Shown: in pieces, positions 2,773 to 24,710 of the stretch | Layout of the letters: each line of letters begins with the position of its first letter | Numbering within the stretch: position 1 is the first letter of the stretch | Assembly: GCA_016930595.1 (NCBI GenBank) | Contig: JAFGGJ010000026.1 | Span: 1-64,000, forward strand | From: Planctomycetota bacterium | GTDB taxonomy: Bacteria > Planctomycetota > SZUA-567 > JAFGGJ01 | Direction: 5' to 3' | Length of the DNA stretch: 64,000 nt | The notes under the pieces: generated by a model | The model's input: only the letters and a program-made list of their open reading frames with translations | The model's database searches: none | Told to the model about the DNA's origin: nothing | Made by a program: the position numbers and the translations under genes

Positions 2773-2790
2773 AAAGACAGGGAGGACACC

Positions 2791-5208: not shown

Positions 5209-5237
5209 TTGACAAACCTTCCGCAAGGGGTTATGAT
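5209..5237 (+). promoter_or_regulatory. Strong sigma-70-type promoter for the hybrid kinase
   Basis: TTGACA (5209-5214), 17-nt spacer, TATGAT (5232-5237). The -35 is perfect and the -10 matches at five of six positions. Predicted transcription starts near 5244, leaving a leader of about 80 nt before the GTG start at 5322. Confidence 0.7.
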
Positions 5238-5321
5238 AATGCTGCAGGTGGCTGCGAAGGGTAAGGCAGACACCATCGCTTTGCTCCGGAGAAAGAACCA
5301 AGATCCTGAGGAGGAAGTAGC

Positions 5322-7610: not shown

Positions 7611-7670
7611 TCCACGCGTTCACGACCGCCCTGTTGACGTTAGATGTTGGCGCGGTTCGGTAGCCGCATT

Positions 7671-7696
7671 GGGTTGCGGGCGTAACGGGGTTGTTA
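7671..7696 (+). repeat. Dispersed 26-nt repeat, copy B
   Basis: Matches the copy at 8498-8523 at 22 of 26 positions (shared core GCGGGCGTAACGGG and TGTTAACCC flank). It lies just after the kinase stop. Confidence 0.5.
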
Positions 7697-7754
7697 ACCC
7701 CACGGCGGGAGGAATGGCGTGTTGGAATTCAGGCGATGGGCGGCCGCGTGAAAC

Positions 7755-7770
7755 CCCCGCACAAGCGGGG
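7755..7770 (-). terminator. Candidate terminator hairpin for the 7807-8418 gene
   Basis: CCCCGC/GCGGGG stem with a 4-nt loop, 37 nt beyond the stop of the minus-strand gene, followed on that strand by GTTTC. The stem is strong but the T-tract is short, so it is only a probable terminator. It could also serve the kinase gene as a transcript end. Confidence 0.4.
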
Positions 7771-7806
7771 CCGGTTCGGAACATAAGAGATGGAATGGGC
7801 ATCCAT

Positions 7807-8418: not shown

Positions 8419-8497
8419 TCCGTCCTCCAAGGTTCCTTTGCGAGAACTCCAAGCAGGTGGGCTTCACGTTGAGAGGCGATGGTTCGAAAACCTTCTT

Positions 8498-8523
8498 GGG
8501 GTCCGGGCGTAACGGGCCTGTTA
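8498..8523 (+). repeat. Dispersed 26-nt repeat, copy C
   Basis: GGGGTCCGG start and CCTGTTA end, followed by ACCCAGAGAGGGTTGTTAA, which forms a small inverted repeat. Lies in the untranslated leader of the 7807-8418 gene. Confidence 0.55.
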
Positions 8524-8575
8524 ACCCAGAGAGGGTTGTTAAACAGAGAATCAGAGAGTTTTTCTGCGGTTTTTT

Positions 8576-8614
8576 GGGGTCCGGTAGTAAACATGGGGGT
8601 TACGCTTGGACCCC
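8576..8614. repeat. Dispersed repeat, copy D, with a 7-bp inverted repeat
   Basis: The repeat-like sequence starts at 8576 (GGGGTCCGGTAGTAA, identical to copy A over 15 nt). It is closed by GGACCCC at 8608-8614, giving a GGGGTCC/GGACCCC stem. It is transcribed as part of the leader from the promoter at 8654-8682. Confidence 0.5.
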
Positions 8615-8653
8615 GGATTCCCGCTCTTGCGACAGAACATTTCATACCACCAG

Positions 8654-8682
8654 ATTATACCAGCCCGCTCCTTGGGTGTCAA
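8654..8682 (-). promoter_or_regulatory. Consensus sigma-70-type promoter, minus strand
   Basis: On the minus strand: TTGACA (8682-8677), exactly 17 nt spacer, TATAAT (8659-8654). Both hexamers are perfect. It points to the unknown gene at 7807-8418. Predicted start is near 8647, giving an unusually long 5' leader of about 230 nt with repeat-derived inverted structure. Confidence 0.75.
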
Positions 8683-8765
8683 CGGGATATGCGAAACAGG
8701 GAAAAGTTCCTCTCCGGGCGTTTTGCGTTCACCAGACGGCAGTCGGAATTCCGCAATGTTCAAGG

Positions 8766-8841
8766 TGGCGCCCCGGCGAGGGCTCAAACCTGGCACCTGC
8801 TGGTTAACAGCCAGCAGCACTACCGATTGGGCTGGCGTGGA
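8766..8841 (-). tRNA. tRNA-Asn(GTT)-like sequence, probably degenerate
   Basis: On the minus strand the anticodon arm is perfect: stem GCTGG/CCAGC (8815-8811, 8803-8799) around loop CTGTTAA with anticodon GTT. The T-arm (ccagg, loop tttgagc, cctcg) pairs at four of five positions, the D-arm at three of four, and a G discriminator plus encoded CCA is present at 8769-8766. The acceptor stem pairs at only four of seven positions and position 8 is C rather than T. That is poor for a working tRNA, so this is more likely a remnant or an integration scar. It sits at the right edge of the island-like segment, 20 bp from the next gene's stop. Confidence 0.5.
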
Positions 8842-8860
8842 ACCGGGCCGCTGCGGCGCA

Positions 8861-9988
8861 TCAGTATTGCCCGAGTCGGCGTGCGGTGTCCATGTAGAGG
8901 ATGTAGTTGTCCGCCGTTTTTTCTGCAAGCGGGACGTTGATGGGCGCGGCGGTGGGCATCAGGCAGAAACGTCCGCCCGGCTTGCCGTGTTCCATGGCGA
9001 CGGAAACGGCGCTGCGGACGTCTTCAGGCGAGCCGTGTTCCAGAACTTTAAGCTCGATGTTGCCGAAGATGCCCAGGTCCGGATATTGCCCGCGTATGTC
9101 GGCGATGGTGACGTCGCCGTCCGGCGGCGGCTCGGCAGGGTCAATGCCGTTGCAGTTGGTGGCGACAACGGAGTCGAGGTTGTTCTTCAGGCGGCCGTGG
9201 GAATGCAGGCGGGCGTATCTGCCGTAGCTCCTGATGAGATCGCACATCGGCCTGTCGTAAGGGACGACGAATTCGGCGAAGAGTTCCGGCGGGAGGTAGG
9301 GCTCGGAGGCGTATTCCGGCCCGACGACCCTGTACATGTCGCCGGCTTCGGCTTCCAGCATGGCGGCGAGGACGTCCATGACGCGCGGCAGCATGGCGTC
9401 GAGAACGGCCTTGAAGAGATCGCGCTCGGTGAACGCGAAAATGGTGAAGTCGCTCATGGCAAAGAGTTCCGCCGCGATGCAGAGCGGGTCGGCGATGCTG
9501 GGCATGATAATGCCGCGGTCGGCGACTTCGGAGCGGATGCGGGGCAGGTCGTCGAAGGAGGGAGGAACGAATTCGTAGGGGATGGAGAGGACGCGTTCGA
9601 CGTCTTCCGCAGACTTGCAGAAATGTTCCAGGTGCCAGGTGGTGTAAATGCCCGGGTCGTTGGCGTCAACAGCGGTAATGTCGCCCCCGGGGGTATGGAC
9701 GACGGTGCGCGTGACTCTACGTTCGCCTTCCATCCATGTTTCCCGCTCGGCGTCCACGGTATCGGTCCACGTGGTGAAGAGGCCGCCGAGGCCGGCGTTC
9801 GACCATGACGGCCCCCACATTGCGATGCAGTCGGAGTTGCGGCGGATGTAGTCCATGAGACGTGAATAGCTGGGTTCGGAGTTTTCCCAGGCGGCGGAGT
9901 TCCAGCCGGCGAGCTCGTAGGTGCTGACGGGGACCCGGTCGGGCAGGACGCCGTTCATGACGGCAAGGAGGCGTTCTCTGGAAGTCAT
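8861..9988 (-). CDS. Uroporphyrinogen decarboxylase-like (UroD superfamily) protein
   Basis: A 375-residue protein with the UroD/methyltransferase TIM-barrel pattern: N-terminal MTSRERLLAVMNGVLPDRVP, PYDRPMCDLIRSYG, the LHSHG metal-type motif and C-terminal GIDP and GGRFCLMPTAAP segments. True HemE is shorter and has arginine-rich substrate motifs that I do not see. It therefore belongs to the broad family that includes corrinoid- or CoM-dependent methyltransferases and many uncharacterised catabolic homologues. It is probably cytoplasmic. The neighbouring genes give no heme context. Confidence 0.75.
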   Translation of the reverse strand: MTSRERLLAVMNGVLPDRVPVSTYELAGWNSAAWENSEPSYSRLMDYIRRNSDCIAMWGPSWSNAGLGGLFTTWTDTVDAERETWMEGERRVTRTVVHTPGGDITAVDANDPGIYTTWHLEHFCKSAEDVERVLSIPYEFVPPSFDDLPRIRSEVADRGIIMPSIADPLCIAAELFAMSDFTIFAFTERDLFKAVLDAMLPRVMDVLAAMLEAEAGDMYRVVGPEYASEPYLPPELFAEFVVPYDRPMCDLIRSYGRYARLHSHGRLKNNLDSVVATNCNGIDPAEPPPDGDVTIADIRGQYPDLGIFGNIELKVLEHGSPEDVRSAVSVAMEHGKPGGRFCLMPTAAPINVPLAEKTADNYILYMDTARRLGQY

Positions 9989-10028
9989 GGAGGACCTTTC
10001 GGAGGCGAAGTGAGGGGGTGAGGCAGGA

Positions 10029-10964
10029 TCAGCCCTTGTTTTCCTGGTCGAGAATCCAGGTAAGCATCTTCGAGTGCCAGTCCGGGATCTGCCACTTGTT
10101 GAAGAAGAACTTGAGATCGGCGAGGTCTTTCTTGCTGGGAGAGAGAGCGTAGGGATGGGTGCCGATGTCCTTGATGATGCCGGTGTGGCGGAGGTCGTCG
10201 AGGATCTGGCGGACCTGTTTGTCCTTGAGCGCCAGGCCTTTGGCGACTTCGGTGGGTTCGACGATGTTCATGCGACGCTTGACGAGGAAGTCGAGGACGG
10301 CTTCGTGAGTCCTGCTTTTGACCACGTGGCGGATAATGTGCTTGAGGTGTTCTTCCTGTTCTTCGATGGTTTCGAGGTGCGGATCCGGGGATGTTTCGAC
10401 GGGTGCGGATTCCGCCTGATCGGGTTCATCCAGGGAGGTTTCGGCCTGCCTGCGTTTCCAGGAGGGGACAAAGCCGCCCTTGGGCTCGACGTGTTTATGT
10501 TCGGGCTTGTCTTCGGAGACGACTTCGCCGTGCGGCTTGGCGGCGCCGCGCGTGGAACTGGTTTCGCTGGCGCGGCGTTTTTCGACGGAGCCGGCGTCGA
10601 GACGGAGGTTGGAGAGCATATGAGCGGCGTCGTGTTTGCTCCCCCCGAGACGGGACATATCGATGAGCTTGACGTCGGGCTTCGAATCGTCGGCATCTTC
10701 GGGCTGGGGAGCAGACTTTTTCATGCCCAGGCCGCGCTCGATGGCGTCGATCTGCCTGGCGCCGATGATGCCCAGATCGATGAGGCGCTGCTTGAGGTCC
10801 ACAGAGCCGCCGTACTGGCGGACGACAAGGACGTCGTATTCCGCCTGGGCGAGGTCTTCTTCAGAAGCCATGGAAAGGGAAGTGAGGAGTTCCTTGAGCC
10901 TATCTTCTTCCGGTTCAAGAGCAGGCTTATCCAAGAAGGTTCTCCCCTCAGAAAGCACGGGCAC
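10029..10964 (-). CDS. Unknown protein with MshEN-like N-terminus and C-terminal winged helix
   Basis: I do not recognise a family. The N-terminal third (about 20-80) has a short helical repeat ending in LIDLGIIGARQIDAIERGL, reminiscent of the MshEN/GspE N-terminal helical module that often binds cyclic-di-GMP or partner proteins; this is inference. A charged, low-complexity linker (about 85-200) follows. The C-terminal 100 residues (HEAVLDFLVKRR, EVAKGL, KQVRQILDDLRHTGIIKD) read as a winged helix. A regulatory or adaptor role is possible. The start is uncertain: GTG 10964 lacks a ribosome site, while TTG 10934 follows a GAGGGGAG site. Confidence 0.55.
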   Translation of the reverse strand: MPVLSEGRTFLDKPALEPEEDRLKELLTSLSMASEEDLAQAEYDVLVVRQYGGSVDLKQRLIDLGIIGARQIDAIERGLGMKKSAPQPEDADDSKPDVKLIDMSRLGGSKHDAAHMLSNLRLDAGSVEKRRASETSSTRGAAKPHGEVVSEDKPEHKHVEPKGGFVPSWKRRQAETSLDEPDQAESAPVETSPDPHLETIEEQEEHLKHIIRHVVKSRTHEAVLDFLVKRRMNIVEPTEVAKGLALKDKQVRQILDDLRHTGIIKDIGTHPYALSPSKKDLADLKFFFNKWQIPDWHSKMLTWILDQENKG

Positions 10965-11081
10965 GCTGCCGGTATTTTACCGGGACCCGAGGGCGGCGCA
11001 AGCGAGACGCGAAACCGCCTGCAACGCCGGTTCAGGTTTCTGGAACGGCCGGCCATACACATAGTGCCGCGGGGCGATGAT

Positions 11082-11109
11082 TTGCGGACAGGACCGGATG
11101 CGGTAGGAT
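11082..11109 (+). promoter_or_regulatory. Weak candidate promoter for PHP gene
   Basis: TTGCGG (11082-11087), 16-nt spacer, TAGGAT (11104-11109), in the 200-bp divergent gap before the gene at 11171. Confidence 0.3.
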
Positions 11110-11170
11110 ATGAGGACCCGCGTGTCGACGGGCGTTGCGTCGAGCGGGAGAGGCAACGGAGCCAGGAAGC

Positions 11171-12058
11171 ATGAAATACGACCTCCACCTGCATTCGGTG
11201 TATTCATACGACGCGGACGCGGAAGTGCGGACGGTTTTCGAGGCGGCGGCGGCCAGCGGCGTGGATCTGATAGCCGTAACCGATCATCACTGCATGGACG
11301 GCTTCCGGGAGGTGGAAGCGACGGCGGCGGAGTACCCGTCGGTGCGCTGCCTGGCGGGGATGGAGGCCACGGTGGAGACGCGGGCGGGTGCGATCGACGT
11401 CGTCTGCCTGGGTTTTTCGGCCGATGACGCCGACCTGCTCGAAAAACCGGTGATATCGAAGTACCGCGAGTGGATGAGGGAACATAATGCGGCCGTTGTG
11501 ACGGGGTGCGGGCGGTTGGGGATCCCATTTGATGCTTCTGACGTGGAAAAGCTGCTTGCCTGGCGGCCAGGGAGACTGCGGGAAATACAGGGGGAGGTGC
11601 GCGTGGCGAACAGCGTCCTGCGTGATGAGTTCGTGCGGAAGGGGGTGCTGGCTTCGCCGGAGGATTACGGTGAGCTGATGCGCCGAATATGCGAGGCGGC
11701 GAAGTCCCCGCCGTACCCGCCGGCGGGCGAGATAATGCCGTTCCTGGCGGAGCGGGCGGCGGTGGTGTCGATAGCACACCCGATGGGAAGGCTGGAGCAC
11801 ATGGGGGCGGAGGAATTCGCCGGGCTGGTGGAAGAAGTCTGTGCGAACGGTGTCGAGGCGGGACACGCCAGGCACAGCCGTGAGCAGAGAGACGCATACG
11901 CCGGTTTCTGCATGGAGAGAAGGCTGGTGGCTACGGGCGGGAGCGACAGCCATTCGAAGGAAGAGTACAGCCTGGGGATAGGGCGCCACATGGGCGGGGA
12001 TTCCTGGGGGAAGGAAGTCCTTGATCTGGCCGGGCCGGGAGCTATTCGAGGTAAGTGA
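11171..12058 (+). CDS. PHP-domain metal-dependent phosphoesterase
   Basis: A 295-residue PHP protein of the TrpH/YciV-like type. Metal motifs are HLHS (6-9), TDHH (37-40), GMEATV (E65), SIAHPMG and the C-terminal GGSDSHSKEE. Members hydrolyse phosphate ester or diester bonds, often on nucleotides (RNase AM activity is known for TrpH). ATG 11171 is preceded by an AGGAAG ribosome site at 11164-11169; an in-frame TTG at 11135 lacks one. The 3' end overlaps the convergent gene at 12042 by 17 bp. It lies between two unknown minus-strand genes, so partners are unclear. Confidence 0.8.
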   Translation: MKYDLHLHSVYSYDADAEVRTVFEAAAASGVDLIAVTDHHCMDGFREVEATAAEYPSVRCLAGMEATVETRAGAIDVVCLGFSADDADLLEKPVISKYREWMREHNAAVVTGCGRLGIPFDASDVEKLLAWRPGRLREIQGEVRVANSVLRDEFVRKGVLASPEDYGELMRRICEAAKSPPYPPAGEIMPFLAERAAVVSIAHPMGRLEHMGAEEFAGLVEEVCANGVEAGHARHSREQRDAYAGFCMERRLVATGGSDSHSKEEYSLGIGRHMGGDSWGKEVLDLAGPGAIRGK

Positions 12059-13151
12059 GGAGACTTTCGTCATCGCCGATAGCGGCGGCGACGGCGGGCG
12101 AGACTCGGCCGGTTTCGTAAAGATCCAGTGCCAGGACGCGTTCAAGGATCCAGCGGGTGATATCCGCCGAGGGGACTTTTTCCTTGAGGGAGCGCTCGCC
12201 GGCGACGGCATCGAGGAAGGTATTGTTGACGTAGAGCGGGCGGGCGAAGGCGGCGATATCCCTCGCAAGAAGAGGGAAGTTGAGCTTGGTGGAGAGAGTG
12301 AGCCTTTCGCCGAGGTAGTCGTAATTGAAGGCGGCCCGGTCCACGAGCGAAATGACAACGGGGTCGCTGCCCATGACGAGGACGAGGACATCATCGTCGC
12401 GGCCGCTGTTGAGGCTGTTGACGTTGAGCATTATCTGTTCGGCCGCGCGCATGGCCCTGTCGTCGGCGGGACTCTGTGCGCCGAAGAGGATTTTTTCGCC
12501 GAGGGTGGGTTCTGAGAGGACATGGTTGAGCATGGCCCATACGCCTTGGCGCATGGCGATGCTGATGGGACTGTCGTTCTTACGTCCGCCGCCGGCGGCG
12601 AGGTCGAACATGGTGGTATCGGAGAAGGACTTGGTCTTGCCGCCGAAGGAGAGACTTCTGATGGTGTCGCGGCCTATGGCGGACCTGATACCCACGGCAT
12701 TGCCGGAGCCGCCGTAATAACGCGGCATGCGGGGGACTTTTACGCAGCGTTTTTCACCGCCGGCGTCCCTGTGGAAGGCCAGAACGGCGCGCAGGTGGGT
12801 CCACGGGAGGAGCGTGCCGGATGTGCCGTCGCAGCTCTGGACGAGGAGTCCTTCCCGGCCCGGGTCGGCGTTCCTTATGAAGCCCGAGCCGTGCGGGATG
12901 TCGAGGGCGGACAGGGGCTGAGCGACGGCGGCAATTCCCCGTGAGACGAGGAAGTCCGCTCCCGCCTGCGCCCGTTCGGCGGCGAGAATTGGGAGGATGA
13001 AACTGTGCCTGGACTGGAGCTGAGTAACGGCATCGAGGCGAGTCATGCCGACGGCCTGTGCGAGGCGGCCGGCAATCTGCACGGGCCGTTGCCTTCCCAG
13101 TTTTTCGAGGAGCAGGATGCCGTACGTGTCGTCCGTGGAAGGCATGGTCAT
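12042..13151 (-). CDS. Unknown protein coupled to a transglutaminase-fold gene
   Basis: A 369-residue protein that I do not recognise. Residues about 8-75 (YGILLLEKLGRQRPVQIAG, AERAQAGADFLVSRGIAAVAQP) look like a small alpha/beta module of the ClpS or L7/L12-C type that recurs in proteins of little-studied phyla. This is a pattern-based guess. The remainder has no obvious catalytic motif. A Gly-Arg-rich stretch (DLAAGGGRKNDSP) precedes a helical half. Its ATG at 13151 overlaps the stop of the transglutaminase-fold gene (ATGA, 13148-13151), so the two are almost certainly co-translated. The 3' end overlaps the convergent PHP gene. Confidence 0.6.
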   Translation of the reverse strand: MTMPSTDDTYGILLLEKLGRQRPVQIAGRLAQAVGMTRLDAVTQLQSRHSFILPILAAERAQAGADFLVSRGIAAVAQPLSALDIPHGSGFIRNADPGREGLLVQSCDGTSGTLLPWTHLRAVLAFHRDAGGEKRCVKVPRMPRYYGGSGNAVGIRSAIGRDTIRSLSFGGKTKSFSDTTMFDLAAGGGRKNDSPISIAMRQGVWAMLNHVLSEPTLGEKILFGAQSPADDRAMRAAEQIMLNVNSLNSGRDDDVLVLVMGSDPVVISLVDRAAFNYDYLGERLTLSTKLNFPLLARDIAAFARPLYVNNTFLDAVAGERSLKEKVPSADITRWILERVLALDLYETGRVSPAVAAAIGDDESLLTYLE

Positions 13152-15013
13152 TCCTTTACGGACAGGCGGATGGATTTCATCACGGGTGATGCGGGAAGAG
13201 AAAGGGACGAGACGGTCCTGTTTTCACCGGGTCGGAGGGAAAGCGAACGGGTAAGTTCGGCGCCGTCGATTTCGACGGTGAATTCGGCTTCGAGGGGATG
13301 GGAATCCGGTTGCGCCGGGAAAACATCGGCGACGTCCATCCTGGCTTCCGCTTCCCACATGTCGAAGGGAGACCGCACTCGCACGAAGACTTCCGAGAGC
13401 GGCTCGCCGGTGCAGGAGAAGCATGCGCCGTCGCCCCAGGGCCAGTGTCCCTGGCCGGGGACTTCGTGGGGTACTTCCGCCCGGTGGAAGAGGGTCCAAG
13501 GGCCTTCTTCGGAAGGGGCCCATTCGAAGGTTGCTTCGTAGCAGCGCTCGTCCGGCGGGGCGGGGTGAAAGCTGGCGAAGAAATACATCCCGGCGATAGA
13601 GCCGTAAGGCGGAGCAAGCCTGAAGACGGCTTCGAGGGAGCCGTCTTCGGTGCGGAGTTTCGTGGTGTCTTCATCGACACGAGTGCCCGAACAGGAGACG
13701 AGGTATTCGTCGAGCCTGTGAGTCATGCGGACGGTGACCGGGACGGTGGCGGGCATTCCCGCTTCCAGCACGACTTCGTTGTCGCCCGCCATAAGGACGG
13801 GCAGGGTGCCTGGCCAGAGCCTGAACCATGTGGTGAGGTCGAGATCCTTGAGAATGGTGCCGGCGGCGTCGCTTTCGATGCGCAGGACGTAGCGGTAGTA
13901 GTTTTCGACAAGGGGCGTGAAGTCGGCGGAACAGGTTTCCGCGCCATCGCCGGCGTCTTTCACGACGGTGTCAACGGAGCGGAAGGAAACGCCGTCGTCG
14001 GTGGAGACAAGAATTCTGAGGGGAGCGTTGGCAAGGGTCGTAACGGAGAGGACGGCCCCATCATGCGAAGCGTGGGTGTTTTTCCAGTCGTCGCGGATAC
14101 CGTTGATGACATAGGGGGAGACGACGGGTATTTCGAGGGAGGAGGCGTCGAGTTCGGCAACGAGGCCGTCGGTGCCGGGTGCGAATCCTTCGGACTTGAG
14201 TGCGCCCTGAAAGATGCTTTCACCGGTAAGATCCGGTCTGTAGCGGAGGTAGCCGTTGCCATACGTGCGGTGTGGTGCGAAACGTTCTCTGGGGCCGTCG
14301 TCGCCCCATTCGGCGGCATACCGTTCGGCATTGGCAAGCCAGGAGGGAGGTGCGAACCATCTTCCCATGGGGCCGTAGAAGCGGACGATCTCTTCGCCTG
14401 GCCTGAGGAAGTAATCCATGGTTCTGAGTTCCTTGGAATAGCGCGGGTAATACGTGGCGGCATGAGGGCCGTAGCATCCTTTAGCGGAGGATTCGGGCGG
14501 GCGGTCGTCGAGGTAGTAGGGGTCCGATGGGTTCTGCTGGTCCGTTATCAGGGAAAGGTCGTCCATGCAGTCGGCGACGGAAGCGATGATGTGGTGCCTG
14601 GGAGGATGGTGCCTGTGGTAGGCGTGGAGGTCGGCGTCGAGGAGGTGCCAGCCGCCGTCGTAGAAGGCTTCGGACACGACATGGCCGGTGATGCCGACGA
14701 GCCTGCCGCCGAGGCCGGCCTTGTCCCAGAGCCATGATTCGACGCGTGCGACCGTGCCGCAGAGGAAGCTGCCGTAGGAATTTACCAGGGAGAGAGGATC
14801 CTGGACGTAACCGGGGCTTTCCGGGTCGTCAACGGTTTTTTCTTCCGGCGACCAGAAATGGTAGAAGCCGAAGTCGCTGTTGACGCAGTAGCTCCAGACA
14901 GCGACCGCGAGATCTTCAGCCGATTTGCCAGCGAACGCCGGGAAGGCCAGGATATGCCGGGCGTCCCGGGTATCCGGCCGGTGGGGAGTGGTGATCCAGG
15001 GCGAATAGCGCAT
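13148..15013 (-). CDS. Large transglutaminase-fold protein (paralogue 1)
   Basis: A 621-residue protein with a Cys-His-Asp transglutaminase-like core near the N-terminus: C85 (YGSFLCGTVAR), H111 (GHVVSE) and D126 (LLDADL). The conserved HRHHPPRHHIIAS and QQNPSDPYY blocks and MDYFLRPGEEIVRF follow. The C-terminal 350 residues are beta-rich, like stacked Ig or sandwich domains. The paralogue at 21450-23333 has the same spacing, C-x25-H-x14-D. No signal peptide is seen. The likely activity is protease, peptide N-glycanase or amidase on a conjugate rather than cross-linking. GGAGGA precedes ATG 15013; the longer ATG at 15034 is less likely. It is divergent from the GH42-like gene. Confidence 0.75.
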   Translation of the reverse strand: MRYSPWITTPHRPDTRDARHILAFPAFAGKSAEDLAVAVWSYCVNSDFGFYHFWSPEEKTVDDPESPGYVQDPLSLVNSYGSFLCGTVARVESWLWDKAGLGGRLVGITGHVVSEAFYDGGWHLLDADLHAYHRHHPPRHHIIASVADCMDDLSLITDQQNPSDPYYLDDRPPESSAKGCYGPHAATYYPRYSKELRTMDYFLRPGEEIVRFYGPMGRWFAPPSWLANAERYAAEWGDDGPRERFAPHRTYGNGYLRYRPDLTGESIFQGALKSEGFAPGTDGLVAELDASSLEIPVVSPYVINGIRDDWKNTHASHDGAVLSVTTLANAPLRILVSTDDGVSFRSVDTVVKDAGDGAETCSADFTPLVENYYRYVLRIESDAAGTILKDLDLTTWFRLWPGTLPVLMAGDNEVVLEAGMPATVPVTVRMTHRLDEYLVSCSGTRVDEDTTKLRTEDGSLEAVFRLAPPYGSIAGMYFFASFHPAPPDERCYEATFEWAPSEEGPWTLFHRAEVPHEVPGQGHWPWGDGACFSCTGEPLSEVFVRVRSPFDMWEAEARMDVADVFPAQPDSHPLEAEFTVEIDGAELTRSLSLRPGENRTVSSLSLPASPVMKSIRLSVKE

Positions 15014-15142
15014 GGCAATTTCCTCCAGGTTCATTTTGGCCGCTTGCGGGCGGGTGTCAACGGCAGGCGTTCAGCTTGCGCCGGCACAGGGGTGTACATA
15101 CAATCGATTGAACCGGGCAGGAGACAGGCAAAGGGGACAGCG

Positions 15143-17800
15143 ATGGCGAAAGAAAAGCCCAGGATAGTGCTGGATGAGAGCGCGATCGAGAGGAACGAGC
15201 CGCTGATGGGTCTGGTGTCCGCTCCGCCCGGAGAATACGAACTGGTTGCGGTCGATACGTACGGGCGGCACGTTGTGGATGAAAAGATCCGGGTGGCGGA
15301 CAGGGCCCTGCCGTTCTCGTTCGGGATGGAGCTGGCGGCGGCGGTTTCCCACAGGTTGAGGCTTGTCCGGAAGGGGCGGAAGGTGGCCGAGACGGCTTTC
15401 AAGGTGGCGCCGCCCCGGTCGGAGAGGAACTGGGACGACTACCACGTTTGCGTGTGGGCCCGTTACCCGCAGGGTTTCTACGAACTGCTGCGGGAAGCGG
15501 GGGTGAATGCTTCCATGGCGTACCGGATGAATGATTTTTCCACCATAGTGGAGAACGAATTTCCTTTCTACGTGGAGCAGGTGGCGCCGACGTGGCTGGC
15601 GTACTATCACCGCTCGGGGATACCCAACTGGACGGTGCTGCTCCAGCAGCAGAAGGACGCGTACAGGAAGCACAGGCCGCGTCCCGGCAAGGGCCTGCAT
15701 CGGACGGTCTGCCTGTCGAAGCGGGTGACGTACGATGAAATGGAACGGCGCATAGCGAAAGAGGTGCTCGATCACCGGTTTTACCGGCCGCTGTACTACA
15801 CGGCTGCGGACGAAGCCGGCATAACGGACCTGACGACGCCGCTGGACCTGTGCTGTTCTCCGGAATGCCTCGGGCGTTTCCGGGAGTGGCTGAAGGCAAG
15901 CTACAGGAGTCTGAACGCCCTGAACAGGGAATGGGGCACATCGTTTGCGACGTGGGGGAAGGTAATGCCGAGGACGGCCGACCAGGTGTTGAACGATGCC
16001 GGCGGGAATTACTCGCCGTGGGCGGACCACAGGGATTTCATGGACCACGTGCTGGGCGAGGCGTTTGAGCGGGCGCGGTCAATGATGCGGAAGTACGATG
16101 CGGAAGCATTATCGGGGCTTGAAGGCGGGCAGATGCCGGCCGCGTACGGGGGTTATAACTGGTTGCTTCTGGGAGCGGCGGCCGACGTCCTGGAGATCTA
16201 CAACATCGGGCACAACTGCGAGATAGTCCGGTCGCTTCACCCTGGCAAGGTGATGCTGAAGGCGGTCTTTGCCACGGGGACCGACTGGGACGTACACCGG
16301 GTGTGGTACGAGTTTCTGCACGGCGACATCGGGGTGATACTCTGGGACAACGGGGAAGAGCGCGCGAGGTGGATACATCCCGACAGGAAGTATTCGCGGC
16401 ATGCGGTGAAGCTGGCGCCGCATTTCAGGGAACTGCATTCGGGGACGGCGCGCCTTCTCCGGGGTGCAAAACGTGTCGACGACCCGATCGGCATTCATTT
16501 TTCGCAGCCGTCCATCAGAGCGGCCTGGATACGTGAGACCCAGGAACAGGAGCGGCAGGGCATAGACTGGCTGAACCAGGGATCGGCCTGGGGCAGACAG
16601 CATTCGGAATTCCTGAGGGTGCGGGAATCGCTCGGGGCGCTCGTGGAGGATCTTGGGCTGCAATACCGCTACCACGCGTACCCGGACATAGAGGAGGGAC
16701 TGTCGCCTGCGGAGGTCCGGATAATGTTTCTGCCGGAGTCGGCGGCGATATCGGACCGGGAAGCGAGGGCGTTTGAGCGGTACGTGAAAGCGGGCGGGAT
16801 ACTTGTTTCGGACGCTCTTGCCGGCGTCTGTGACGGCCACGTGAAGAGGAGGGGAAAAGGGGCGCTGGACAAGCTGTTCGGGATCAAGCGCGCAGACGGA
16901 GCTTTCTTCCCGTTCGGAGAGAGCATCGAGGTGTTGAAAGCACAGGGGCCGTTCGCCGGCCTGAAGGGGCTTGCGGAGGTAAGCCTCAAGGCGGCCGAGC
17001 CAGGTATCACGGCGAACGGTGCGAGTGTATGCGGTGACTGTTCCGGCGTTCCGGCCCTGATGTATAACAAGGTCGGCAGGGGGATGGCGGTGTATCTGAA
17101 CGTGCACAATCCCGACTACCGGCGGCTGCGGCTGGACACGCGGTCAGCAGCCGCTGCAGGGATCAGGGCTCTCTACGCCACGCTGATCCGAGCCGCGCGC
17201 GTCAGTCCTGCGGCGTTCTTCAGAGGCGGGAATCCGGTCGGTGTCGAGATACACCGTTACATGGACGGGAGGATCGCCTACATTGGCATCGGTCACAACC
17301 CGCACCTGCGGGTAAGCGAACTCGGCGGCGATGAAGCCGCCGACAACGGCATGATCATGAGGCCGCATTCCGGCACGCTGGCCGTCGGCCGAAAACAGCA
17401 CGTTTACGATGTGCGCAGAGGAAGGTACATAGGGTTGAGGGAGTCGGTGCCGGTGAAGCTGCCCGGAGCCGGAGCCGTGATACTGGCGGTGATGCCGTAC
17501 AGGGTAACGGGGATTGAAGCGGCTTTCCGTGGCGAAGGCAGGCCGGGCTCGGTGGTCGCGTTGTCAGGGCGCATCAAGGTATCCAAGGGGGTGCCGGGGC
17601 GGCACGTAGTGCACATGTCGATCCGGCAGCCGGACGGCCGAACGCCGCATTACTTCGAGCGTAACCTGGAAGCACCGAACGGCCGGTTTTCCTGCAGCAT
17701 ACCGCTGGGCCACAATGCGCCCGCCGGGCGTTACAGCGTTACGCTGGCCGACACGGCCACCGGCGTCAAGCGTACGGTAGCGTTAACTGTGCGGCGCTGA
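15143..17800 (+). CDS. GH42-like beta-galactosidase family protein
   Basis: An 885-residue glycoside hydrolase of the GH42 / clan GH-A type. The segment PECLGRFREWLKASYRSLNAL (241-261), ending in NREWGT, is the classic GH42 signature after a Cys-rich turn (C237, C238, C242). The likely acid/base is E224 in AADEAG; a nucleophile candidate is E327 (LEGGQ), less certain. About 100 residues of beta-sandwich precede the barrel and about 130 Ig-like residues end the protein; the middle part (about 560-700) resembles the GH42 trimerisation domain. No signal peptide is present, so it acts inside the cell. AAGGGG precedes ATG 15143. It is longer than typical GH42 (650-700). The 3' end overlaps the convergent GTPase gene by 18 bp. 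Confidence 0.75.
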   Translation: MAKEKPRIVLDESAIERNEPLMGLVSAPPGEYELVAVDTYGRHVVDEKIRVADRALPFSFGMELAAAVSHRLRLVRKGRKVAETAFKVAPPRSERNWDDYHVCVWARYPQGFYELLREAGVNASMAYRMNDFSTIVENEFPFYVEQVAPTWLAYYHRSGIPNWTVLLQQQKDAYRKHRPRPGKGLHRTVCLSKRVTYDEMERRIAKEVLDHRFYRPLYYTAADEAGITDLTTPLDLCCSPECLGRFREWLKASYRSLNALNREWGTSFATWGKVMPRTADQVLNDAGGNYSPWADHRDFMDHVLGEAFERARSMMRKYDAEALSGLEGGQMPAAYGGYNWLLLGAAADVLEIYNIGHNCEIVRSLHPGKVMLKAVFATGTDWDVHRVWYEFLHGDIGVILWDNGEERARWIHPDRKYSRHAVKLAPHFRELHSGTARLLRGAKRVDDPIGIHFSQPSIRAAWIRETQEQERQGIDWLNQGSAWGRQHSEFLRVRESLGALVEDLGLQYRYHAYPDIEEGLSPAEVRIMFLPESAAISDREARAFERYVKAGGILVSDALAGVCDGHVKRRGKGALDKLFGIKRADGAFFPFGESIEVLKAQGPFAGLKGLAEVSLKAAEPGITANGASVCGDCSGVPALMYNKVGRGMAVYLNVHNPDYRRLRLDTRSAAAAGIRALYATLIRAARVSPAAFFRGGNPVGVEIHRYMDGRIAYIGIGHNPHLRVSELGGDEAADNGMIMRPHSGTLAVGRKQHVYDVRRGRYIGLRESVPVKLPGAGAVILAVMPYRVTGIEAAFRGEGRPGSVVALSGRIKVSKGVPGRHVVHMSIRQPDGRTPHYFERNLEAPNGRFSCSIPLGHNAPAGRYSVTLADTATGVKRTVALTVRR

Positions 17801-18898
17801 GCCTCCGGCAGGCTGAGGACACGGTCCTGAATCGGCGTCGTGGTGGACGTCGAGCGGCCCGGACACGAGTTCATCCGGCTCTGCCGTGCCGTGCAGGATA
17901 TTTTCGACGGCGGCCCGCTGCCTGGCGGTGAATATCCCCGGTCCGGGCACGCCGCCCATGAGGCGGGCGAATACTTCTGCGCGTAGAGCGTCGATGCCCT
18001 GGCCGGTAAGCGAACAGACCGGCAGGCCGCCGTTTTGAGTGCCGATGTCGCACTTGTTACCGACGCGAACGACGACGGCAGGGACGTTGTCGGGAAACGC
18101 CGGTTCGACCGTATCCGGCGACACTACCCAGACGAGGGCATCTGCGGCGGCTATGGACTGGAGGGCGCGGCGGCGGGCTTCACGCGGCAGCGGCGTATTG
18201 GCAGTGCCCAGGCCGGCGGTATCTGTGATTTCGACCGCTGCGCCGAGCCAGTCGACGCGACGAATGACGGCGTCCCGCGTCGTTCCCGGGAATTCGCTCA
18301 CAAGGCTCCCGCCGCCCAACGCGTTGACAAGCGTGCTCTTGCCCGAGTTTTCCGCGCCGGCGACGGCTACGCGATGAGTTAGGCAGAGGCGTTCCAGCGG
18401 GCCGGCGCCGGCGAGCATGTCGGCAAGGGCGTCGATATCGCGGCGTTCCGCGGCAGCCCTGAGCACCTTGACACTGTCTCTCACGAGGGCGGAGGCGAGC
18501 GGCGAGGTGGTGCTTTTCAGCACGGAGACCGCTTCGGTTTCAAGGGCGTCACGGTGGCCGGCCTGGAACCTCAGCATGTCCATTTGCCGAACAGGGATTT
18601 CTTCATACCCCATTGCCGCGAGTTCCGAGACGACAAGGCCGGTTACAACGGCGCCTCCGTGGCAGTGGATTTCGAGGTAGTCCGGCTGCCCGTCAGGCAG
18701 GTTGACTATGACTTCGTCAAGGGCCTGCCCATCGGGACCGAGAAAATCGGCCAGTAGAAGTGTGTTAGTTGAGCCGGCGCGGGGCCTGAATCTCGACATG
18801 GCAAGGCGGCGGGCGGATTGGCCGATCAGGGCGATAACTGCGATGGCGGCGTCTCCGGGCGGGGTCAAAACGCAAAACATGCCGCATGAGGGGGGCAT
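17783..18898 (-). CDS. MnmE/TrmE-like GTPase lacking the C-terminal catalytic motif
   Basis: A 371-residue GTPase. The N-terminal TrmE domain is recognisable (VLTPPGDAAIAVIALIG, YLEIHCHGGAVVT). The G domain has G1 GAENSGKST (181-189), a TTRD switch, G3 DTAG (226-229) and G4 NKCD (281-284). True MnmE is about 450 residues and ends in a C-x-G-K motif needed for tRNA U34 modification. Here the helical domain is reduced and the protein ends in an acidic/Pro tail without that motif. It is therefore a MnmE-derived GTPase of probably different function. ATG 18898 or an internal ATG at 18880 (MFCVLTPPG) may be the start. It follows coaX by 9 bp in the same direction. Confidence 0.8.
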   Translation of the reverse strand: MPPSCGMFCVLTPPGDAAIAVIALIGQSARRLAMSRFRPRAGSTNTLLLADFLGPDGQALDEVIVNLPDGQPDYLEIHCHGGAVVTGLVVSELAAMGYEEIPVRQMDMLRFQAGHRDALETEAVSVLKSTTSPLASALVRDSVKVLRAAAERRDIDALADMLAGAGPLERLCLTHRVAVAGAENSGKSTLVNALGGGSLVSEFPGTTRDAVIRRVDWLGAAVEITDTAGLGTANTPLPREARRRALQSIAAADALVWVVSPDTVEPAFPDNVPAVVVRVGNKCDIGTQNGGLPVCSLTGQGIDALRAEVFARLMGGVPGPGIFTARQRAAVENILHGTAEPDELVSGPLDVHHDADSGPCPQPAGGSAPHS

Positions 18899-18907
18899 GG
18901 GCGTCGT

Positions 18908-19663
18908 TCAGAATCCTGCGGCCGTCAGGTCGAGGGCGAGGCCGAGAAGCGTAAGATGCGGTACGGTGGTCACCGCAGTGCGCAGGTGGCGGTTGAGCAA
19001 TTCAGTGTCTCCTCCGGTCAGGTAGACGGGACAGCCGTCAACGGCCTTTTCCCTGCGCATAGCCTTTACGAGGGAATCCACGGCGCCCGCGGCCCCCAGG
19101 ACGCATCCGGAAAGCATGGCCTGCTTGGTGTCGCTGCCGACGGCGCTGATGGGCGAAGCCGCTTCCAGTTTCGGGAGCAGGGCGGTGCGGTTTCCGAGAG
19201 CGTCCAGGGATACCTGGATGCCGGGCAGTATTGCTCCTCCCATGAACACGCCGTCGGCGGTGACGAGGTCCACGGTTATGGCGGTGCCGGCGTCCACGGT
19301 TATGGCGGCGCCGCGTGCGATATAATAAGCCGCCCGGCTGTTGAGGATCCTGTCGTCGCCGGTTTCCATGGGCCGGTCGGTTCCCATTTCAATTCCGGGG
19401 TCGAAATCCACACGGTACCTGAGCACCGGAACATCCAGTTGAACGGACGCCGCTGCAAGCACGTGATCGACAATATCGGGGGCGACGCCGGAGATCCCGA
19501 CAGCAGAGACGTCCCTGTCCACCACGCCGCCGAGCACGGCTGCAGCGGCTCTCGACGGGACGCCGCCGTACCTGTGCGAACCCGTTACGACGGGATCGGC
19601 GTCTTCGAAGACTCCCCACGAGACCCGGGTGTTTCCGATGTCCACTACATAGACAGCAGGCAA
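18908..19663 (-). CDS. coaX: Type III pantothenate kinase
   Basis: A 251-residue CoaX, catalysing the first step of coenzyme A synthesis (pantothenate to 4'-phosphopantothenate) in the cytoplasm. Diagnostic ASKHA-fold motifs are DIGNTR (8-13), GDDRILN followed by the AAY segment, DAGTAITVD and GGAILPG. Length is typical. It heads a two-gene minus-strand unit with the MnmE-like GTPase. It diverges from the GH140-like gene, sharing a gap of about 165 bp. Confidence 0.93.
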   Translation of the reverse strand: MPAVYVVDIGNTRVSWGVFEDADPVVTGSHRYGGVPSRAAAAVLGGVVDRDVSAVGISGVAPDIVDHVLAAASVQLDVPVLRYRVDFDPGIEMGTDRPMETGDDRILNSRAAYYIARGAAITVDAGTAITVDLVTADGVFMGGAILPGIQVSLDALGNRTALLPKLEAASPISAVGSDTKQAMLSGCVLGAAGAVDSLVKAMRREKAVDGCPVYLTGGDTELLNRHLRTAVTTVPHLTLLGLALDLTAAGF

Positions 19664-19744
19664 CGGTGTTCTCCTTGATGTGTTCCAACCGCATTCTACA
19701 CAATCACCATTGCAGTGAAACCCCTAATCTTGGGAATGAACGGC

Positions 19745-19772
19745 TTGACACTGTTTCGGCAGGGCTTACCTT
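19745..19772 (+). promoter_or_regulatory. Promoter for the GH140-like operon
   Basis: TTGACA (19745-19750, perfect), 16-nt spacer, TACCTT (19767-19772). This gives a leader of about 50 nt to ATG 19830 and supports that start over the ATG at 19785, which would be almost leaderless. Confidence 0.5.
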
Positions 19773-19829
19773 TGTTTGCGAACCATGCTGCAGTTCACAG
19801 GAGCCGATGAGCTGACCGGAGGCCGTGGA

Positions 19830-21431
19830 ATGGAATTATTCTGCAGGCAGTACCAGGTCGCTGAATGGCCGTTGGTTTCCACGGTTGACCACGGGGATCC
19901 CTTCAACGAGCTGGACGTAGATATAGTTGTCGCCGGGCCGGGCGGCCTGCGGATGCGGGTGCCCGCGTACTGGGCGGGCGGGGCGGAATGGCGTGTGCGG
20001 TTTTCGGCGCCGCTGCCGGGCGAATACACCTTTTGCTCGGAATGCACGGATGAGGGCGATGGAGGGCTTCACGGGAGGGAAGGCCGCATAACCGCCGCTC
20101 CTGCCGCAGGGAGCAATCCCCTGTATGCTCACGGCGCTGTGCGTGTTTCCGGGGACAGGCGCGGGTTCGAACATGCCGACGGGACGCCGTTCTTCTGGTT
20201 GGGAGACACGTGGTGGATGTGCCTGTCCGAAAGACTGTCGTGGCCGGAAGACTTCCAGCGGCTGGCGGCCGACAGGTGTGGCAAAGGGTTCAGTGTCATC
20301 CAGTTGGTGGCGGGTTTCTATCCCGACATGGACCTCTTTGACGAACGGAACATGAACGGGGCTGGTTTCCCGTGGGAGCGGGATCTTGTGGCCGTCAATC
20401 CCCGCTATTTCGACCTTGCCGACCTGCGTATCCAGTGGCTGGTGCGTTCGGGCCTTGTGCCGTGCATCGTGGGAGGGTGGGGGTATTACGTTCTGAAGAT
20501 AGGGCCGGAGCGGATGGGGAAGCACTGGAGGTACCTCATCGCCCGGTACGGGGCGTACCCGGTGGTCTGGTGCCTGGCGGGCGAAGCCAGGATGCCGTGG
20601 TACCTGTCGGAGAGCAGGGAGGAAGACAGCGAACGGCAGGTTTCGGCATGGACGGAAGTGGGACGAACGGTTCGCAGCACGGATCCGTATCATCGGCTCA
20701 TTACCATCCATCCTGATGTCACAGGGCGCGACCAGGTGAAAGACGACGGCGTCCTGGACTTCGACATGCTGCAGACGGGACATCATGGCAGGGAAGTCGT
20801 TCCCAATACCATCAGGATACTTAAAGCGGAGCTGAAACGCAGGCCCGTGATGCCGGTTATGATCGGCGAGGTTCTGTATGAGGGCATTATGCACGAGTCT
20901 TCCGACGAGATGCAGCGCTGCGTCTTTTGGGCATCGATGCTGTCCGGATCCGCCGGCTACACGTACGGCGCCAACGGGATATGGCAGTTCAACCGGCCGG
21001 GCGCGCCCTATGGCGCTTCCCCGCCGGGACACAACTGGGGGAATACCGCATGGCAGGATGCCGTCGGCCTGCCCGGGTCGCGGCAGTTGGGTATTGCGAA
21101 GTCTTTGTTGGAGCGTTGCGAATGGCGGCGCTTTGAGCCGCATCAGGATTGGGTTTCGCCCGCGGCCGGCGATAAAGACTTCTTCGCCTGCTATGCCGCG
21201 GGGATAGCGGGCGAGGTCCGTATCATCTATGTCTGGCGGGGGGGCTGTTCCTGGGACAGGATTACAGTGCTGGAACTGGAACGCTCTGTGAAATACAGGG
21301 CGTATTTTTTTGATCCCCGCAACGGGGAGGAGCACGGCATAGGCGAAGTTGTTCCGGATGGATCGGGTTCGTGGGTTGCGCCTGTTGCTCCCACGATAGA
21401 TGATTGGGTTATAGTCCTGCAGAAGGCATGA
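19830..21431 (+). CDS. DUF5060/DUF4038 (GH140-like) glycoside hydrolase
   Basis: A 533-residue protein with an N-terminal Ig-like DUF5060 region (about 1-100) and a DUF4038 TIM barrel (from FFWLGDTWW). The barrel has two likely catalytic acids: E252 in CLAGE and E347 in MIGEVLYEG. Characterised relatives include GH140 apiosidases acting on pectin side chains; the substrate here is unproven. No signal peptide is visible. GGAGG (19818-19822) is 7 nt from ATG 19830, so upstream in-frame ATG 19785 and TTG 19776 were not used. It begins a plus-strand operon with transglutaminase-fold paralogue 2 18 bp later. Confidence 0.75.
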   Translation: MELFCRQYQVAEWPLVSTVDHGDPFNELDVDIVVAGPGGLRMRVPAYWAGGAEWRVRFSAPLPGEYTFCSECTDEGDGGLHGREGRITAAPAAGSNPLYAHGAVRVSGDRRGFEHADGTPFFWLGDTWWMCLSERLSWPEDFQRLAADRCGKGFSVIQLVAGFYPDMDLFDERNMNGAGFPWERDLVAVNPRYFDLADLRIQWLVRSGLVPCIVGGWGYYVLKIGPERMGKHWRYLIARYGAYPVVWCLAGEARMPWYLSESREEDSERQVSAWTEVGRTVRSTDPYHRLITIHPDVTGRDQVKDDGVLDFDMLQTGHHGREVVPNTIRILKAELKRRPVMPVMIGEVLYEGIMHESSDEMQRCVFWASMLSGSAGYTYGANGIWQFNRPGAPYGASPPGHNWGNTAWQDAVGLPGSRQLGIAKSLLERCEWRRFEPHQDWVSPAAGDKDFFACYAAGIAGEVRIIYVWRGGCSWDRITVLELERSVKYRAYFFDPRNGEEHGIGEVVPDGSGSWVAPVAPTIDDWVIVLQKA

Positions 21432-21449
21432 TTGCGAAAGGACGCTGAA

Positions 21450-23333
21450 ATGCATTACACGCCCCGGGTTGTATCAGAGCACGTCCCCGATTTTTCTTCG
21501 CTGGGGGCGCTTTTGGGACACAGGCGTTTCCAGGGGAAGTCGGGCCAGGAACTTGCCATAGCGCTCTGGGAACTGATCGTGGACCATGATCTCGGCATTT
21601 ACCATTATCTGCCGGCGATAGAGCGTTTCTGGAACAAGGATGTGTACGATCCGCTTAAGATACTGAACGTATACGGTTTTACGATATGCCACTGTCACGC
21701 GCACATGCTTGCGATGATAGCCAGGGAGGCCGGGTTCACGACGCGCATAGCGAACATACGGGGGCATGAAGGCACAGAGATATTCTATGACGGGGCGTGG
21801 CATTATTTCGACGCCGATATACAGTATTTTCACCGCAAACATCCGCCCGAAGAACACATCATAGCCTCGCGGCAGGATCTCTATGACGACCCGTCGCTGG
21901 TCGACGGGCAGCAGAACCCATCCTTTCCATACGGCTTCCCTGACCGGCTGCCCCAGAACATACGTCCGCTGTACGAGGATGTTCCCAGTTATCTGCCTGT
22001 GTTCGCAGAGCGGATACACAGCATGGATTACCGCCTGAGGCCCGGTGAGGAAATTGTCCGCTTCTTTCACAACAAGGGGCGGTGGGTGGTATTCGATTAC
22101 TATCCTGAAGCGTGGTTGCGTTATGACCGGGAAACGGGTGCAGAGGGACCGACGGAGCGTTTCTGGCCGCGGCGCCAGTGGGGCAACGGGTACTTTCATT
22201 ATGCGCCGTGCCTCAACAGTGCATCGCGGGACGTCGAACTTTCCGATATCGCCATGAAGGGGATTGAGCAGGATCGCGACGGTCTGGTCTGCAGCGGCGC
22301 GCGTGGAGAAGCTGTACTGAGTTTTGAATCGCCGTATATCTACTGCGGGGTTCCGGATCCGCTGAAGCGCGTGCCTTCCGAGCGCGGGGCGTTACTCAAG
22401 GCGCGTTTCATGCTGCCCGAGGGAACGTCTGCCACGGTGACGGCGGTAGCCGGCGGGCGGCGCAGGAAACTGTGGTCTTCAAACGGCCGGTTTGGCGAAG
22501 TCGTTTGCGACGCGGACTATACGGCTTCCGTTGACGGGCTTTATTCGTGTTCTCTGAGGTTCAAGCTGGAAGGTCCCGGAGCACGCCTGGCGGAGGTCGA
22601 CAACACGCTCTGGTTCATGGTATCCCCGCATTCGCTGCCAGCGCTGAAGAATACCGGTCCCAACCGGATGAGGCTGTGCCACGGCGACAAGCACGGCCTG
22701 TTTACAAAGCCCGACCTGCTGGAAGTGAAGATGGAAGGCGCTGAGGGCCCTCCCGGGGCATATTCCGCCGAAAACCTCGTTTACCGGCCGGAAACCTTCT
22801 CCCGTGTCCTGCCGGAGGATCCGTCACGCCCGTGGAGATTGACTTACAGGCTGCGTCCCCCGGAGAAGGGCGCGGTCGCGTGGGTTTCGGCATATGCGAT
22901 ATTCGAAGGCATACGGCCGGGCGAGGATTATGACGGCACACAGGCCGTTATTGAAGTTGCTGTTTCGCCTGACGGTCCATGGACCGAAGCCGCGCGTTCA
23001 CACGTCTATGAACATCCTCAGGGATGGCATTTCGGTCTGCATGGCGAGAGCCTGCTTGAAAAGCCCGCGAGGACCGTCTATATGCGGTTATCGTGCAAGA
23101 AGGGGATTCTGGGTTTTCGCGTCGCCCAGCACTATGTGCCGGCAGGTGCACGTGCCGCGTCCTGTCCTCTTGAAGCGGTCCATGAATGGTACGAGGTGGA
23201 CACCCGTGTCGGCCGGCGGCTCCGCAGCCACGTTGAAAGAGTTGTATCTCCCGAAGCGGAATACGTTGTTGAGTGTGCACAGGAGCCGCATGATGAAAGC
23301 ATTACGCTGCGGGTGCCGTCGGTGGCGAAATGA
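21450..23333 (+). CDS. Large transglutaminase-fold protein (paralogue 2)
   Basis: A 627-residue homologue of 13148-15013. The core has C80 (YGFTICHCHAHM), H106 (GHEGTE) and D121 (YFDADI), with the same spacing as paralogue 1. The shared HRKHPPEEHIIAS, QQNPSFPYG and MDYRLRPGEEIVRF blocks mark a distinct subfamily. The C-terminal half is beta-rich. ATG 21450 follows a GAAAGGA ribosome site. It lies 18 bp after the GH140-like gene and before the LarA homologue, which argues for a role in degrading a sugar or peptide conjugate. The beta-rich C-terminus may bind that substrate. No export signal is seen. Confidence 0.75.
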   Translation: MHYTPRVVSEHVPDFSSLGALLGHRRFQGKSGQELAIALWELIVDHDLGIYHYLPAIERFWNKDVYDPLKILNVYGFTICHCHAHMLAMIAREAGFTTRIANIRGHEGTEIFYDGAWHYFDADIQYFHRKHPPEEHIIASRQDLYDDPSLVDGQQNPSFPYGFPDRLPQNIRPLYEDVPSYLPVFAERIHSMDYRLRPGEEIVRFFHNKGRWVVFDYYPEAWLRYDRETGAEGPTERFWPRRQWGNGYFHYAPCLNSASRDVELSDIAMKGIEQDRDGLVCSGARGEAVLSFESPYIYCGVPDPLKRVPSERGALLKARFMLPEGTSATVTAVAGGRRRKLWSSNGRFGEVVCDADYTASVDGLYSCSLRFKLEGPGARLAEVDNTLWFMVSPHSLPALKNTGPNRMRLCHGDKHGLFTKPDLLEVKMEGAEGPPGAYSAENLVYRPETFSRVLPEDPSRPWRLTYRLRPPEKGAVAWVSAYAIFEGIRPGEDYDGTQAVIEVAVSPDGPWTEAARSHVYEHPQGWHFGLHGESLLEKPARTVYMRLSCKKGILGFRVAQHYVPAGARAASCPLEAVHEWYEVDTRVGRRLRSHVERVVSPEAEYVVECAQEPHDESITLRVPSVAK

Positions 23334-23441: not shown

Positions 23442-24710
23442 ATGATAGGGATTGGCGCCGAAGATAAAGTCCTGACAGAGGACGAAATAGCATCGATAGT
23501 CAATGAAGCAGCTGCGGCCATTCCGGCCTCCGGAAAGAAAGTACTGGTCCTTATCCCGGATGCAACCCGCACCTGTCCTACGCCGCAGGTTTACCGTTTA
23601 CTGAACGATTCGCTCGGGAAGAAGGCCGAGCGAGTCGATTACCTCGTCGCCCTGGGTACGCATCCGTCCATGACCGACGACCAGATCGAGCGTCTCCTGG
23701 GGATGTCCCGTCATGAGCGTGAAGGGAAATATCCAAACTCGACTGTCTTCAACCATGCCTGGGACGACCCTGCATCTCTTGAGACGGTAGGCGTCATAAC
23801 GGCGGATGAAATCAGGGAAATGACGAACGGGCTCTTTGAAATGGAAGTCCCCGTTGCCGTAAACAGGCTTGTTGCCGGTTACGATATCCTGTTGATTTTC
23901 GGACCGGTATTCCCGCACGAAGTGGTAGGGATGTCGGGGGGCAACAAGTACATCTTTCCCGGTATTTCCGGTCCGGAATTCCTGAATTTCTTCCACTGGT
24001 TCGCCGCGGTCATTACCAATCCGAAGACCATCGGGAACAAGCGTACGCGTGTGCGGGCGCTCATTGACCGGGCCGTGCAGTTCCTGGATATCGAACGCTA
24101 CGCGCTGAAAGCCGTGGTGCACGGAACGGACACGAAGGGCCTGTTTTTCGGTGAGGTGGATGAGGCGTGGTCTGCGGCGGCGGACCTTTCCATAAAGATC
24201 GATATCGTCTACAAGGAGCAGCCTTTCAAGGCGGTCTTGTCGCAGGCGCCGGAGATGTATGACGATATCTGGACGGCCGGGAAGGCCATGTACAAGCTGG
24301 AACCCGTCGTCGCCGACGGCGGCGAGCTGATCATATATGCGCCGCACATAACGGAAGTCTCTTATACCCACGGCAGGATACTCGACGAAATCGGCTACCA
24401 CACGCGCGACTACTTTCTGAAACAGTGGGACAGGTTCAAGCATTATCCGTGGGGGGTGGTTGCGCATTCAACGCACGTGCGTGGCATAGGTACTTTTGAG
24501 GACGGCGAGGAAAAGCCCCGGGTCCGAGTTGTGCTTGCCACCCGCATTCCGGAAGAGCGCTGCAGGAGGATCAACCTGGGCTACCGTGACCCGGATTCGA
24601 TAGACGTCAGCGAATGGCAGGACAGGGAAGAGGAAGGTATTCTGTACGTACCCCGCGCGGGGGAACAGCTCTATCGCCTGGCCGACCCTCCGGCCTGGCA
24701 GCAGCCATGA
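23442..24710 (+). CDS. LarA-family nickel-pincer racemase/epimerase (DUF2088)
   Basis: A 422-residue homologue of lactate racemase LarA. Family motifs are visible: D40-A-T42-R43, H74 (LGTHPSM), H159 (FPHEVVGMSGGNK), K169, the lysine expected to hold the pyridinium pincer cofactor, and H185. LarA homologues racemise or epimerise 2-hydroxy acids, including sugar-derived ones. The sugar-enzyme context suggests an aldonate-like substrate, but this is inference. The cofactor makers LarB, LarC and LarE are not in this window and must lie elsewhere. AAGGA precedes ATG 23442. Confidence 0.8.
   Translation: MIGIGAEDKVLTEDEIASIVNEAAAAIPASGKKVLVLIPDATRTCPTPQVYRLLNDSLGKKAERVDYLVALGTHPSMTDDQIERLLGMSRHEREGKYPNSTVFNHAWDDPASLETVGVITADEIREMTNGLFEMEVPVAVNRLVAGYDILLIFGPVFPHEVVGMSGGNKYIFPGISGPEFLNFFHWFAAVITNPKTIGNKRTRVRALIDRAVQFLDIERYALKAVVHGTDTKGLFFGEVDEAWSAAADLSIKIDIVYKEQPFKAVLSQAPEMYDDIWTAGKAMYKLEPVVADGGELIIYAPHITEVSYTHGRILDEIGYHTRDYFLKQWDRFKHYPWGVVAHSTHVRGIGTFEDGEEKPRVRVVLATRIPEERCRRINLGYRDPDSIDVSEWQDREEEGILYVPRAGEQLYRLADPPAWQQP

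Follow-up and report, generated by a model that had tools for sequence, protein, structure and literature searches.

Two paralogous genes next to glycoside hydrolase genes

The window, that is, the whole 64,000-nucleotide stretch of a Planctomycetota contig analyzed in this study, contains two similar genes adjacent to different glycoside hydrolase genes, which raises the question of what family they belong to and whether its members take part in glycan catabolism. The first protein, P1 (622 aa; 13148..15016, minus strand), starts at the ATG at 15016 in an ORF that opens at 15034, and the second, P2 (627 aa; 21450..23333, plus strand), at the ATG at 21450. Both start codons probably lie 18 bases inside the respective ORFs; they are preceded by GGAGGA in P1 and AAAGGA in P2, and match the starts of relatives. 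P1 and P2 are full-length paralogs (33% identity over 537 aligned columns, E 2e-77). As the original prediction had it, both ORFs exist and both products carry all four motifs named there: C-x25-H-x14-D, HRxHPPxxHIIAS, QQNPSxPY, and MDYxLRPGEEIVRF. The predicted catalytic residues of P1, from alignment and conservation, are Cys85 (codon 14762..14764), His111 (14684-14686), and Asp126 (14639-14641), all on the minus strand and counted from ATG 15016; those of P2, on the plus strand and counted from ATG 21450, are Cys80 (21687..21689), His106 (21765-21767), and Asp121 (21810-21812). A hydropathy scan found no N-terminal hydrophobic export segment in either protein, in agreement with the absence of an export signal predicted before, and the beta-rich C-terminal parts are visible only in low-confidence models.

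The gene neighborhoods are also as predicted, P1 being divergent from a GH42-like gene and P2 lying directly 3' of a GH140-like one. The GH42-like gene (15143..17800, plus strand, with 15143 as the probable start) exceeds the cut-offs for Pfam GH42, and its start is separated by 126 bp from that of P1. The GH140-like gene (19776..21431, plus strand; Pfam Apiosidase, E 2.4e-69) has its stop codon 18 bp from the P2 start, and no other gene of this genome matches Apiosidase. A gene for a LarA-family nickel-dependent racemase/epimerase (23442..24710, plus strand), 109 bp downstream of P2, is likely the last gene of the P2 operon; among NCBIfam models it comes closest to that of a putative hexonate epimerase (E 1.7e-51, under the model cut-off).

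The pairing with GH140 thus holds in the window, but it is not conserved: in two other genomes (G003 and G011) the GH140-like genes are far from the relatives of P1 and P2 described below, and a search of G005, G007, and G045 found no GH140-like genes. We therefore rejected a conserved GH140 partnership.

Two further genes of the region deserve mention. A 369-aa protein with no Pfam match over cut-off is encoded at 12042-13151 (minus strand); its start overlaps the P1 stop by 4 bases, so that co-expression of the two genes is possible. A short MnmE-like GTPase of 371 aa (17783-18898, minus strand), which has TrmE_N and GTPase domains and scores far under the MnmE model cut-offs, is encoded next to, and downstream of, a gene resembling type III pantothenate kinase; locus L046 shows the beginning of a further MnmE-like protein.

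Relation to the transglutaminase-like superfamily

Neither P1 nor P2 matches any Pfam or NCBIfam model over cut-off. For Transglut_core (PF01841, curated cut-off 23 bits), P1 is unmatched, and P2 has a sub-threshold match of 12.8-15.1 bits at 21645-21770 on the plus strand. The link to the transglutaminase superfamily is drawn from three observations: two paralogs from the same genome (G000:C94 and C39) exceed the PF01841 cut-off, 7 of 22 family members give weak Transglut_core matches (best E 5.7e-6), and a profile comparison by hhalign with bona fide Transglut_core proteins encoded in this genome gives E 7.6e-5 (probability 62%). In the hhalign alignment, C80, H106, and D121 of P2 fall on the known triad positions. 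The transglutaminase fold proposed for the pair is therefore supported both by paralogs at the PF01841 level and by a profile alignment with the triad in register.

P1 and P2 have in common with Transglut_core the Cys-His-Asp order, an AG-x-x-x-R turn, and strands of the form H-x3-E-x-FYDG-x-W-x3-D. They differ from it in scoring under the cut-off, in lacking the Trp found in the usual HAW motif, and in about 500 extra residues with beta-rich regions and an LRxGE motif of the family's own. Two AlphaFold2 models, built from the window and a limited set of loci and with a mean pLDDT of 45 each, place a predicted helix (79-93), which the Cys may head, and strands (97-103, 106-113, and 116-120) around the triad, as expected for the fold; models of this confidence do not establish the active-site geometry. 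Foldseek searches of these models are to be read as leads only. The N-terminal model has Streptococcus pyogenes TglA (9crn) as its top fold match (probability 0.90, E 0.11), and the full model, at pLDDT 45, matches CBM35/CBM6-type and PNGase C-terminal domains (E ~0.01 to 0.04). We know of no link between TgpA/TglA-type proteins and glycan loci. Unlike TgpA, which is anchored to the inner membrane (PMC10318531), P1 and P2 are devoid of a hydrophobic N-terminal segment. With the cytoplasmic PNGase (NGLY1/PNG1) they share the transglutaminase fold and, as far as a weak match of a low-confidence model can suggest, a possible sugar-binding beta-sandwich after the core; unlike it, they have glycoside hydrolases and sulfatases as genomic partners, and neither the Pfam nor the PDB sequence searches match them to PNGase.

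Sequence searches of the PDB with P1 and P2 yielded no credible relative, and two scans for viral homologs found none. Judged from homology to the transglutaminase core, P1 and P2 are of a known kind, and their family is not named by any curated model; in this sense the pair is indeed undescribed, as had been proposed. The fold and the triad are already known, and the family, its non-exported branch, and the glycan context appear to be undescribed in the literature searched, where we found no paper linking transglutaminase-like proteins to planctomycete glycan loci.

Family distribution and the non-exported branch

The first profile search identified eight copies of the family in the genome that contains the window; the highest number in one genome, 23 matches, was found in a Phycisphaerae MAG reached through locus L009. 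At the threshold of the phylum-wide count (E up to 1e-20), 32 of 294 sampled Planctomycetota genomes have family matches. In the Armatimonadota, the phylum of locus L012, the count is 11 of 121 genomes. Each of the Cys, His, and Asp residues is retained by almost all of the 79 relatives collected, so that the triad pattern of P1 and P2 is more than a chance resemblance. Three relatives deviate: in L095 the Cys is replaced by Glu, in L103 the His by Asp and the Asp by Asn, and in L011 the Asp by Glu; L095 and L103 have lost the triad and are possibly inactive paralogs. Conserved throughout the family are the Cys, GH-x3-E-x-(F/Y)YD-x2-WH-x2-D, an Arg, IAS, and LRxGE. Most of the 79 relatives have a hydrophobic N-terminal export segment by hydropathy. 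The proposed intracellular subfamily thus stands insofar as P1 and P2 are not exported, but the family far exceeds this pair and is mostly secreted.

The His/Pro block, taken in the original prediction as the mark of the subfamily and a pointer to a specific substrate, did not hold up. In a side-by-side alignment with relatives, the complete HRxHPPxxHIIAS occurs only in P1 and P2; relatives of the P2 type have looser versions, for instance RPPQAHVIAS, and in the four closest relatives of P1 the HPP is absent, with only R...IAS left. We rejected the HPP/HIIAS block as a family signature, as it is confined to P1 and, loosely, to P2-type proteins. Since the block is not a family-wide feature, the substrate argument built on it fails.

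Fourteen non-exported proteins, including P1 and P2, group together in a tree of 77 rows (SH-aLRT 98), and in a more careful tree of 22 rows, 16 non-exported proteins are split from an exported outgroup at 99/98. The latter tree divides the branch into four subtypes. The P2-type subtype, the L109/L112 subtype, and the third, sulfatase-linked subtype (L056/L057/L111) each have a support of 100/100, and the subtype of P1 and L052 to L055 is moderately supported (86/89). Several subtypes coexist within the same genomes (G000, G005, G045, G110, and G061), and hence P1 and P2 are old out-paralogs and not products of a recent local duplication. By sequence relationship, each represents one subtype within the non-exported branch of a large family that has no name and has expanded in some Planctomycetota.

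Among the secreted paralogs, tandem arrays of six and three genes were observed in L062 (G009:C23, 3989-16882) and L063 (G007:C322, 5757-12174), respectively; ahead of these arrays lie an ECF sigma factor-like gene and a partner-like gene, and behind them a conserved gene encoding about 587 aa. In L049 (G000:C2, 2779-9415), a divergent secreted paralog lies beside three genes that, by their N-termini, look like the uroporphyrinogen-decarboxylase/methyltransferase (URO-D) type, with sulfatase genes also near.

Glycan-related gene context

The link to glycan genes seen in the window extends beyond it to most loci of the non-exported branch. By our count, a glycoside hydrolase, polysaccharide lyase-like, deacetylase, or sulfatase gene is found within about 4 kb in 9 of 16 branch loci, a number that rises to 12 of 16 with sugar isomerases included. 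For instance, the P1-type loci L052 to L054 contain genes for a LacI regulator, an L-fucose isomerase, and a PfkB kinase, and L055, also of the P1 type, two rhamnogalacturonase-like beta-helix genes. In L110, a P2-type member is followed by two Gfo/Idh genes and a GH32 gene. Members of the third subtype adjoin a sulfatase in all three loci, from two genomes. Further, GH2 and GH123 genes were found in L112, a polysaccharide deacetylase gene in L051, and a sub-threshold heparinase-like protein in L113; L050, L108, and L109 have no recognized glycan gene among their neighbors. The glycoside hydrolase partner varies by locus, and no neighbor points to one substrate. The starts of the glycoside hydrolase, sulfatase, and LarA neighbors show no obvious signal peptide, which fits a cytoplasmic step.

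We compared 78 proteins encoded next to branch members with 81 proteins from 13 loci picked at random in these genomes. Sulfatases occur four times on the branch side and once in the control, and glycoside hydrolase families on the branch side only, the control being represented by the 25 most frequent of its 112 families; this enrichment is supportive but approximate and not a formal test, as the branch gene calls were partly chosen by hand and are uncertain in G+C-rich loci.

Locus L111 (G110:C6) has a long run of genes on the same strand (229-18548) around the member of the third subtype. It encodes beta-helix proteins, a carbon-nitrogen hydrolase, two GDSL-like hydrolases, an FG-GAP protein, a metallophosphoesterase, a sulfatase, a product of the aminoglycoside 3-N-acetyltransferase family, and a GHL6-like protein. 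A conserved large gene is present beside members of two subtypes, in L059 (6842-8965) and L111 (10816-12825), the copy in L111 having an FG-GAP match.

Proposed function

The transglutaminase superfamily includes proteases and other peptidases, deamidases, cross-linkers, acyltransferases, and PNGase-like enzymes. The reaction cannot be read from the fold alone, and no firm choice among those of the superfamily is made here; to our knowledge, the fold was not previously found in glycan catabolism loci. Considering together the core homology with the triad aligned, the conservation of the triad, the absence of an export segment, and the repeated linkage with glycan genes, we suggest, at about an even chance of being right, that P1 and P2 are cytoplasmic cysteine hydrolases of glycan catabolism, with the subtypes serving different glycans. 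The reaction is probably the cleavage of a sugar-linked amide or ester, the candidate substrate being inferred. The Cys would attack a carbonyl group of a glycan fragment that has been imported or partly degraded, and the resulting acyl-enzyme would then be released to water. Removal of the amide- or ester-linked substituent could allow the neighboring hydrolases, sulfatases, and sugar isomerases to act. By locus content, the P1 type may correspond to the glycans of L-fucose isomerase loci, the P2 type to those of GH140 or GH32 loci, the third type to those of sulfatase loci, and the fourth to those of GH2/GH123 loci.

The main alternative is a cytoplasmic protease or another protein-modifying enzyme (peptidase, deamidase, or cross-linker), in which case the neighboring glycan genes would be explained by the regulation or processing of glycan enzymes rather than by a reaction on the sugar. 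Many described transglutaminase-like enzymes do target proteins or peptides (PMC4866520, PMC10318531), and the tandem secreted paralogs of G009 and G007 adjoin the genes resembling ECF sigma factors and their partners. However, the non-exported members recur with genes for sugar isomerases, kinases, glycoside hydrolases, and sulfatases, and each subtype keeps a separate glycan context, so we consider a protein substrate rather unlikely. Another alternative, in line with the glycopeptide or amide-linked sugar put forward as a possible substrate in the original prediction, is a PNGase-like amidase that would cut the N-glycosyl amide linkage between sugar and asparagine or a comparable glycosylamide, PNGase itself being an established transglutaminase-fold enzyme that releases N-glycans (see also PMC2866665, PMC2791212, PMC9102325). 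The carbon-nitrogen hydrolase and aminoglycoside-acetyltransferase-family genes of L111 would agree with such an activity, as would the CBM35/CBM6-type and PNGase C-terminal domains matched by the full model, but these beta-sandwich matches are generic and come from a model of pLDDT 45. The sequence searches against Pfam and the PDB give no PNGase match, nor were peptide-handling genes seen to recur beside the branch, which makes this activity distinctly improbable.

An acyltransferase that transfers an acyl group to or from an amino sugar, in the manner of arylamine N-acetyltransferases, would belong to the same broad class of thiol fold and triad (PMC4866520); we regard it as very improbable, since no conserved acyl-CoA-binding feature was identified and the AAC(3)-family acyltransferase gene that could speak for it occurs in a single locus, L111.

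Returning to the cytoplasmic cysteine hydrolases of glycan catabolism, a broader claim would be that the branch forms a novel class of thiol enzymes that process glycans in the cytoplasm, with subtypes for different glycans, removing amide- or ester-bound groups beyond the reach of the glycoside hydrolases, lyases, and carbohydrate esterases known so far; this extension seems to us somewhat doubtful. The family itself, with up to 23 matches in one genome and the triad kept, is without a curated name. If the link with glycans is true, it would fill a gap among the catalytic steps by which these bacteria use polysaccharides and provide, locus by locus, a short list of candidate substrates.
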